Shown piece after piece: positions 40,902-41,647 of a DNA stretch of 64,000 nt. How positions within the stretch are numbered: the first letter of the stretch is position 1; every line of letters starts with the position of its first letter. The position numbers and the translations under genes are program-made. The DNA is from Hyphomicrobiales bacterium (lineage in GTDB: Bacteria; Pseudomonadota; Alphaproteobacteria; Rhizobiales; Beijerinckiaceae). The notes under the pieces are model-generated. The model was not told where the DNA came from, ran no database searches, and saw only the letters and a list, made by a program, of their open reading frames with translations. The stretch lies in contig CANGLU010000002.1 of NCBI GenBank assembly GCA_947455025.1, positions 1 through 64,000 of the forward strand, written 5' to 3'.

Positions 40902-40941
40902 TAGGGGCATCCCCTAATAGTGCTTTGGCACATTCTTTGCT
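40902..40941 (+). promoter_or_regulatory. Sigma-54 promoter with adjacent inverted repeat
   Basis: TTGGCAC followed by five bases and TTGCT (40925-40941) matches the sigma-54 consensus at both the -24 GG and the -12 GC with exact spacing (GG at 40927-40928, GC at 40939-40940). TAGGGG-CAT-CCCCTA at 40902-40916 is a short inverted repeat just upstream. Transcription would start near 40952, about 47 bases before the ATG of the 54-codon frame. Confidence 0.72.
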
Positions 40942-40998
40942 TAAGTAATTCTGCTCGGCATAAGCCAAGCGGTTAAAACATTTCGGGGGAAAGCCGTT

Positions 40999-41163
40999 AT
41001 GAATGACACAGTAATGAATGGTGCATTAGATCTGCAATTGGCACGCGCCGAGCGCCGGATGGAAGAATTGATGAATTGGGCCAAGCTTCGTAAGCGGCTT
41101 GCCACGTCAGTTCGTCGGCAAATTAAGCTCGCCCGCCAAGCAGGGTCGATCGAAACACGTTGA
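40999..41163 (+). CDS. Small basic protein, 54 aa, unknown
   Basis: This reading frame runs from an ATG with a strong GGGGGAAAG ribosome site to TGA. The product starts MNDTVMNGALDLQLARAERR and is predicted to be mostly helical. The second half is strongly basic (WAKLRKRLATSVRRQIKLAR), which could contact nucleic acid or an acidic partner. I do not recognise it. It is preceded by a near-consensus sigma-54 promoter and followed, after 175 bases, by flgM on the same strand. That setting suggests a flagellum- or sigma-54-linked role. The size is below usual gene-calling limits, so it may be unannotated. Confidence 0.6.
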   Translation: MNDTVMNGALDLQLARAERRMEELMNWAKLRKRLATSVRRQIKLARQAGSIETR

Positions 41164-41259
41164 TAAATAGCCTTTTAGGCGGAAATTTCGCTGATATTGG
41201 CTATTTTCTGGGCAGTTTTTGGATTTTTGAAAAAAAATAAAAAAAACTCAAAATTCGAT

Positions 41260-41286
41260 TAAAGTTTTTGAATCGAAAGCCGTCTT
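41260..41286 (+). promoter_or_regulatory. Sigma-28 (FliA)-type promoter before flgM
   Basis: TAAAGTTT at 41260-41267 equals the sigma-28 -35 consensus. After exactly 11 bases comes GCCGTCTT at 41279-41286, which keeps the GCCG half of the -10 consensus GCCGATAA. Transcription would begin roughly 45 bases before the flgM ATG. FlgM is a classical sigma-28 target, which supports the assignment. Confidence 0.65.
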
Positions 41287-41338
41287 ATAAGGTACAAGAA
41301 CGTGTAGCTTTCTTCGACGCACGCGTTGGAGGTGTATG

Positions 41339-41647
41339 ATGATAGACTCTATTGTGAACAAGGCGATGATTTCCGATGCGACGGTCCGTAAAGGCCCGAA
41401 GGCGGATTTGAAGGTCGCAATTCCTTCTGCATCCGTTTCCGATACGGCGACGGTACAAAAGGAAGCCGCGACCATGGTTGAAGTGACGATTGCGAAGGGC
41501 AATGGCCTTTCGGAACCGCCTTTCGACTACGCAAAAGTGATTGCGCTCAAGCAGTCGATCAAGAACGGCGATTACAAAATCGACTTCGGCAAGCTTGCTG
41601 ACTCGATGATTGGAACGGATATCTTGAACCCAGTCCGGGGCAAGTAA
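41339..41647 (+). CDS. flgM: Flagellar anti-sigma-28 factor FlgM
   Basis: The 102-residue protein has a long low-complexity N-terminal half, as in FlgM, which is largely unfolded until it binds its sigma factor. The conserved C-terminal helix pair reads YAKVIALKQSIKNGDYKIDFGKLADSMI. This aligns closely with the enterobacterial FlgM pattern [27 protein letters not shown]. FlgM holds sigma-28 inactive until the hook is complete and is then exported through the flagellum. GGAGGT lies 5 bases before the second of two adjacent ATG codons, which is preferred. No other flagellar gene is in the window. A sigma-28-like promoter precedes it and an intrinsic terminator follows. Confidence 0.85.
   Translation: MIDSIVNKAMISDATVRKGPKADLKVAIPSASVSDTATVQKEAATMVEVTIAKGNGLSEPPFDYAKVIALKQSIKNGDYKIDFGKLADSMIGTDILNPVRGK

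Follow-up and report, generated by a model that had tools for sequence, protein, structure and literature searches.

Why does a 54-codon gene with an apparent sigma-54 promoter stand directly before flgM, the gene of the anti-sigma-28 factor? The question arises from a window of 64,000 nucleotides (the whole stretch of DNA analyzed), in which the original prediction saw a near-perfect sigma-54 site ahead of an unannotated small protein and suggested that this protein could be a part of the switch between the two sigma factors. The reading that we favor, with a probability of roughly 0.55, is that the locus is a sigma-54 flagellar unit that supplies FlgM early and encodes a new small flagellar protein with a putative role in the switch. 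The comparisons below cover the window's own genome (G000) and the other genomes of its genus (n = 12 in all, labeled in the style G001), and the features described lie on the plus strand.

The putative sigma-54 (RpoN) promoter, TGGCAC-N5-TTGCT, occupies positions 40926 to 40941, an assignment based on its exact consensus and its conservation. Positions 40925 to 40941 read TTGGCACATTCTTTGCT, that is TTGGCAC-N5-TTGCT, so that the GG and GC elements stand 10 bases apart (GG-N10-GC), and the genome contains both RpoN, which is present in all 12 genus genomes, and a gene for an enhancer-binding protein. The exact pattern TGGCAC-N5-TTGCW is matched nowhere else in the window, where shuffled sequences give an expectation of 0.12 matches. 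When up to one mismatch is allowed, the window holds one match against 2.87 expected, and the weight of the site therefore rests on its exactness and above all on its conservation. There are 13 copies of the small gene; one begins at a contig end, and every one of the 12 with upstream DNA (11 from clades 1 and 2, plus that of G002) has the exact site. The invariant dinucleotides at exact spacing are thus borne out, and by its recurrence before these copies this is a conserved sigma-54 site.

Downstream of the promoter, a GGGGG Shine-Dalgarno sequence at 40985 to 40989, recognized from sequence and alignment and reading GGAGG in three of the five clade relatives of the window's genome, is followed nine bases later by an ATG at 40999. 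This opens the 54-codon gene (40999 to 41163), which encodes a basic, predicted all-helical protein. The predicted order of a strong Shine-Dalgarno sequence, a short basic helical protein and then flgM is confirmed by this start codon, by a pI of about 11.5 and by the helix model described below. Ten of the 12 genus genomes, the window's own counted, have the protein by sequence search at E < 1e-7. The G002 copy is divergent and was borderline in the first search (E 0.027), and a profile built without it recovers it at E 8e-6 from 1409 frames in four stretches of that genome, the next-best frame scoring 0.56. The frame is therefore kept in 11 of 12 genus genomes, G001 giving no match in the profile search, and the conservation in relatives on which the proposed gene depended is found. 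Among equal-length copies inside each of the two main clades, variable columns are distributed over codon positions 1, 2 and 3 as 23/17/45 (clade 1) and 20/19/45 (clade 2), and dN is below dS in every computable pair (for example, 0.076 vs 0.71), with dS saturated in three pairs. The substitutions are thus codon-biased, the opposite of what would have spoken against the gene. Fifteen residues are invariant across 12 copies of the protein. Judged by these patterns, the small gene is a genuine protein-coding gene under protein-level selection. Two diverged copies each are present in G005 (contigs C78 and C149) and G007 (C51 and C68), and in G005 flgM and its CMAS-type methyltransferase neighbor also occur twice; mixed bins seem likelier than duplications as the source of these doubled copies.

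Outside the genus, 48 genomes from the family and order gave a best E of 0.06 to the small protein. A profile search of 298 family genomes produced weak matches alone in 31 non-genus genomes (best E 0.002), and one of 397 order genomes produced two weak non-genus matches, neither with a sigma-54-like site. These profile searches scored no more than 16 to 22 candidates per genome, and very divergent members may escape them. Among the 19 family loci that were kept, even a loosened pattern finds no sigma-54-like site in the 400 nt upstream of 15, which were rejected as relatives; one (L096) has a poor partial site, and three (L087, L094 and L095) lie near a contig end and are untestable for a site. 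Taking family and order together, 17 of all 21 weak-match loci examined have no such site, one has the poor partial site, and 3 are those near a contig end. Within the candidates scored per genome, then, the protein family looks restricted to the genus. Five named public records contain the small gene, all of them MAGs labeled Beijerinckiaceae, Rhizobiales or Hyphomicrobiales, and the gene was not found in viral contigs or plasmids. Literature searches confined to the open PMC library turned up no description of the gene or its protein family.

The protein is basic throughout the family, with a pI of 10 to 11.7 and a net charge of about +5.5 to +6.6. A structure model made from 13 sequences predicts one helix from residue 2 to residue 53 (pLDDT 89.7, pTM 0.54). 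Searches of Pfam, NCBIfam, PHROGs, PDB sequences and PDB folds return no significant relative, a fold search with the single helix gives no match, and the known flagellar small proteins and chaperones (FlgN, FliS, FliT and others) match it neither in sequence nor in fold. The weak matches that do appear were taken as chance: NCBIfam ZapD, far below cut-off, in 3 of 13 members with a best E of 0.004; a best PHROGs value of 0.019; Pfam HIND at 0.86; and, in the PDB, ribosomal protein L18 at 0.5 and titin at 0.9. The window protein itself matches designed repeat proteins alone in the PDB, through summed weak repeats. By eye, the protein may resemble an arginine-rich RNA-binding peptide of the phage N type, a likeness not borne out by PDB and Pfam searches, in which no such peptide appeared even with E values as high as 10. 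At the alpha-helical angle of 100 degrees, the hydrophobic moment is ordinary, with 42% of shuffles at least equal to it. If the angle is left free, the moment peaks near 106 degrees; this peak is equaled by 5 to 148 of 1000 shuffles in 12 members and by 789 of 1000 in the G002 member, which is no more than suggestive of a coiled coil. Such a helix could act by self-association or through contact with a partner helix or nucleic acid.

The gene that follows, flgM (41336 to 41647), is identified by Pfam FlgM at 35.9 bits against a cut-off of 25 and by the NCBIfam FlgM equivalog at 43.4 against 40.75. It has a sigma-28 (FliA)-like promoter of its own at 41260 to 41284, TAAA-N15-GCCGTC, proposed from conservation of the pattern. 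TAAA-N15-RCCGT stands upstream of 11 of the 12 genus flgM copies, the twelfth (G004) having C in place of R, and TAAA-N14-16-RCCG is upstream of 10 of 19 flgM copies from other genera of the family. The sigma-28-like pattern is not enriched in the window's own genome, where 41 sites compare with 66 for a reversed control. An approximately 20-base block over the flgM ribosome-binding site (41313 to 41332 in the window) is kept in all 11 aligned clade-1 and clade-2 copies, with 14 invariant columns. Several folds place a hairpin over its Shine-Dalgarno sequence; the hairpin was rejected because 43 to 217 of 300 shuffles are as stable in all clade-1 and clade-2 copies tested. The block itself is a possible translational control site of flgM.

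Across the family, flgM is rare (31 of 298 genomes, 5 of 43 genera), and it is present in 11 of the 12 genus genomes. It sits behind a flgA-type gene in 19 of 19 loci from four other genera, and also in G002; Pfam confirms FlgA for the G002 locus and for one locus from each of the four genera, the rest being assigned by eye. In G000 and G001, a Pfam-confirmed flgA is followed by a short gene that occupies the flgN position and matches nothing in Pfam, and flgM is missing from between the two. On the near side of the small gene, the CMAS-type methyltransferase is found in 11 of 12 stretches, namely those that reach that side, and on the far side of flgM the genes vary by clade (pab-type, peptidase M20-like or other, by eye). 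In G002, the small gene has no flgM beside it; about 4 kb separate it from the orthologous CMAS gene (67% identity), and it has an exact sigma-54 site of its own. It is therefore more than a flgM leader, and the arrangement speaks for a separate task of the small protein during the sigma-54 phase. The same genome has an exact sigma-54 site within the 3' end of flgA, 115 nt upstream of flgM (locus L113, G002:C8:30083-30098). G001 contains neither the small gene nor flgM, a joint absence that may reflect one deletion or an assembly gap and is weak evidence because the orthologous CMAS gene is missing too (best match 38% identity).

These arrangements leave room for a tentative alternative that we consider somewhat unlikely, in which the small gene serves the flagellum or motility independently under sigma-54 and has no role in the FlgM/FliA switch, flgM having become its neighbor through a past rearrangement and being served by its own sigma-28-type promoter only. 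G002 fits such a history, as its small gene is alone under sigma-54 and its flgM lies behind flgA, and so do the conserved promoter-like site of flgM and the other FlgM-bearing genera of the family, which have no convincing match to the small gene. What speaks against an accidental neighborhood is that flgM lies directly behind the small gene in 10 of 12 genomes even though the genes on the far side vary by clade.

A flagellar setting for the locus is suggested by the company that its promoter keeps. There are nine exact sigma-54 sites in the window's own genome, four of which immediately precede flagellar genes, namely flgB and genes of the flgE, flgF and flhA types (assigned from Pfam families and by eye). 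One precedes a gene divergent from flhA that encodes a 159-residue protein with a lipoprotein-like start (L054, 1550 to 2029), another is 57 nt upstream of a periplasmic-binding-protein gene, and the remainder are the site before the small gene and two sites within open reading frames. G001 and G002 combined have 15 exact sites against none for the reversed control pattern, and 7 of the 15 stand before flagellar genes as judged by eye. With up to one mismatch, the own genome has 100 sites against 60 for the control, and inexact sigma-54 sites are therefore untrustworthy. A gene for a sigma-54 activator (Sigma54_activat, HTH_8) is separated from flgE by fliS alone, and the FHIPEP flagellar-export gene is found in all 12 genus genomes. 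Two or three FHIPEP (FlhA-type) matches occur in seven of these (G001, G002, G004, G005, G007, G009 and G010) and one in each of the other five, the window's own genome among them; the extra matches may come from mixed bins or, in some species, from an additional export system of flagellar or type III kind.

It is possible to read the same promoter as part of a non-flagellar sigma-54 response, such as nitrogen or transport, with the small gene near flgM by accident. Its neighbors in the window other than flgM are indeed non-flagellar (the CMAS-type methyltransferase and, by eye, pab-type genes), and the site before the periplasmic-binding-protein gene shows that at least one exact site of this genome has such company. 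We nevertheless hold this to be very unlikely, given that the identified genes behind own-genome exact sites number four flagellar to one that is not, and given the persistent linkage to flgM.

In the proposed hierarchy, FlgM would hold off a FliA-type sigma factor. The window's own genome has a candidate (G000:C87, L044) beside MinD/FlhG-like and FlhF-like genes, all three of which score below curated cut-offs. Its NCBIfam FliA scores are 178.7 against 201 and 176.2 against 189.6 bits; the FliA models match it best, and we word it FliA-like because the cut-offs lie above these scores. A clear FliA-like match is present in 10 of the 12 genus genomes and exceeds the curated cut-off in one. The signal in G007 (83% complete) is a 21-position C-terminal fragment, and G004 (100% complete) has no FliA-like match, only RpoD- and RpoH-sized ones, together with the small gene, flgM and two FHIPEP matches. 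G004, which also has the off-pattern flgM site, counts against a simple FlgM-FliA reading of its own locus. It weakens the early-FlgM explanation and strengthens the view of the small gene as an independent flagellar gene, which G004 keeps without a FliA-like match. The original comparison with a two-step flagellar hierarchy holds for the most part. A sigma-54 unit before a sigma-28-type flgM, the presence of RpoN and of a FliA-like gene, and the flagellar sigma-54 sites agree with it, and G004 does not.

Counting from the promoter, transcription would start at about 40952, which would place a predicted stem-loop (40951 to 40972) at the 5' end of the sigma-54 transcript, as indicated by fold stability and by the clade-1 alignment. 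The stem-loop of the window has a predicted stability of -11.1 kcal/mol, reached by 1 of 300 shuffles, and the corresponding counts for G004, G009 and the two G005 copies (G005a and G005b) are 0, 0, 1 and 0. In clade 1, 87% of pair cells are kept, compared with 24 to 44% in slid controls; three pairs have changed on both sides, a number reached by 67 of 500 shuffles, and the covariation score is reached by none of 500. In clade 2, 89% of pair cells are kept, there are no two-sided changes, and the score is no better than that of shuffles. Folds of single sequences place a stem at the same position in both clades, built from different pairs, and each of the 11 leaders examined from clades 1 and 2 is predicted to form a stem-loop at its 5' end. 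Conservation of this structure is thus likely for clade 1 and possible for clade 2. These observations invite an explanation in which the leader is dual-function or RNA-controlled, the stem-loop stabilizing the mRNA or binding a protein, so that RNA and peptide would be of equal importance; possibly the arginine-rich small protein itself binds the leader, which would amount to autoregulation. The presence of the stem-loop in every clade-1 and clade-2 leader examined, the five of 12 leaders that are more stable than nearly all shuffles, the two-sided changes in clade 1 and the use of different stem pairs in the two clades are all in keeping with this idea. We give it very little credence nonetheless, as the clade-2 alignment adds no covariation, six of the 12 leaders are ordinary (24 to 92 of 300 shuffles as stable), and that of G002 has no fold in the tested stretch and folds weakly in a longer one. 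A comparably strong 5' hairpin also occurs in one of 15 control sigma-54 leaders, that of flgF in G001 (L108, G001:C2:27794; 0 of 300 shuffles). The sole Rfam match reaches 20.9 bits, far under the gathering score of 55, and the protein sequence is clearly under selection.

Between the stem-loop and the small gene lies a conserved TAAA-N15-GCCGTT block (40974 to 40998) that is sigma-28-like by pattern and uncertain in function. As TAAA-N15-GCCGTTAT, it covers the ribosome-binding site and the start codon and is invariant in six of six clade-1 genomes; in clade 2, its TAAA part is not at the same spacing. A second sigma-28 promoter at this place was considered and rejected, as its start would fall inside the open reading frame, the TAAA spacing is lost in clade 2 and the pattern is unenriched genome-wide. 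Upstream, an inverted repeat is indeed present at 40902 to 40916, where the original prediction saw a possible activator or repressor site. Similar repeats occur in 34% of shuffled versions of the intergenic stretch and in 35% of 191-nt window tiles, and the exact 6-base repeat is missing at the same place in the other five clade genomes; at chance level and unconserved, the repeat was rejected as an operator. Downstream of the small gene, a short-loop consensus scan finds no plus-strand terminator before flgM. There is a longer stem, pairing 41165 to 41172 with 41199 to 41206 and followed by T-rich sequence (-16.2 kcal/mol; 12 of 200 shuffles are as good), and in 2 of 10 copies this feature ranks in the top three repeats. 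Because this stem and T-rich sequence lie between the genes, full read-through into flgM is an assumption.

With that assumption, the sigma-54 flagellar unit that we prefer would operate in two steps. RpoN and a flagellar enhancer-binding protein would start transcription at about 40952, and the transcript would encode the 54-residue protein and probably continue into flgM. The early FlgM would hold the FliA-type sigma factor off during the period in which rod and hook are built from other sigma-54 genes, and once the hook is done, maintenance of FlgM would pass to the FliA-type promoter immediately upstream of flgM. In this reading, the small protein is a genuine flagellar protein particular to the lineage, a long basic helix that perhaps self-associates, and would most likely be a regulator within the flagellar programme. 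The sequence itself shows the gene, the sigma-54 site with its conservation, the flagellar neighbors of such sites and the linkage to flgM with its exceptions, whereas transcription, read-through, timing, the activator and the regulatory role belong to the model. A more specific role is conceivable, in which the 54-residue arginine-rich helix is a new flagellar switch factor that is made in the sigma-54 phase only and acts on the handover between FlgM and FliA. It might bind FlgM, the FliA-type sigma factor or RNA and so set the amount of early FlgM, candidate RNA targets being the stem-loop at the start of its mRNA and the conserved block that covers the ribosome-binding site of flgM. We think this specific role distinctly unlikely. 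The broader suggestion of the original prediction, that the protein is part of the sigma switch, is possibly right: that the two genes are linked in 10 of 12 genomes and absent together from one fits such a role, which G002 and G004 do not require.

If the sigma-54 flagellar unit is the right reading, the locus is a clear test case for the early supply of FlgM and offers a candidate small regulator. The genus consists of freshwater bacteria, and the previously unnamed small gene is a candidate part of their sigma-factor handover. Hierarchies that run from sigma-54 to sigma-28 are described for gammaproteobacteria (PMC3930126) and for the fla1 system of Rhodobacter sphaeroides (PMC7277832). According to a 2025 paper, Alphaproteobacteria have no known flagellum-specific sigma factor (PMC12826043). 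This genus, whose named records are Beijerinckiaceae/Rhizobiales MAGs, appears to have a hierarchy from sigma-54 to sigma-28. The novelty lies in the position of flgM, which has left flgA and now follows a new small gene preceded by an exact sigma-54 site.

The early-FlgM model is drawn by analogy with R. sphaeroides and Vibrio. One close parallel is the Fla1 hierarchy of R. sphaeroides (FleQ/FleT, sigma-54, FliA/FlgM), another Alphaproteobacterium, where the sigma-54 class is reported to include FlgM together with the basal body and hook genes, export of FlgM freeing FliA after the hook is made (PMC7277832). The relevant section of that account names no small gene ahead of flgM, whereas here flgM follows a 54-codon sigma-54 gene and lies away from the flagellar clusters seen. 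Vibrio and the gammaproteobacterial flgA-flgM arrangement, which recurs in the other genera of this family, offer the likeness of an upstream gene's promoter, proposed as the source of early FlgM before hook completion (PMC3930126). The upstream partner in our locus is instead the small gene and its promoter is sigma-54, whereas the Vibrio flgA promoter is described as independent of both RpoN and FliA (PMC3930126). A further likeness is found in Campylobacter jejuni, where small transcripts are reported to fine-tune a hierarchy of sigma-54 followed by sigma-28 (PMC11187230). The products in C. jejuni are sRNAs (PMC11187230), whereas selection at the codon level indicates that the product of the locus described here is a protein.
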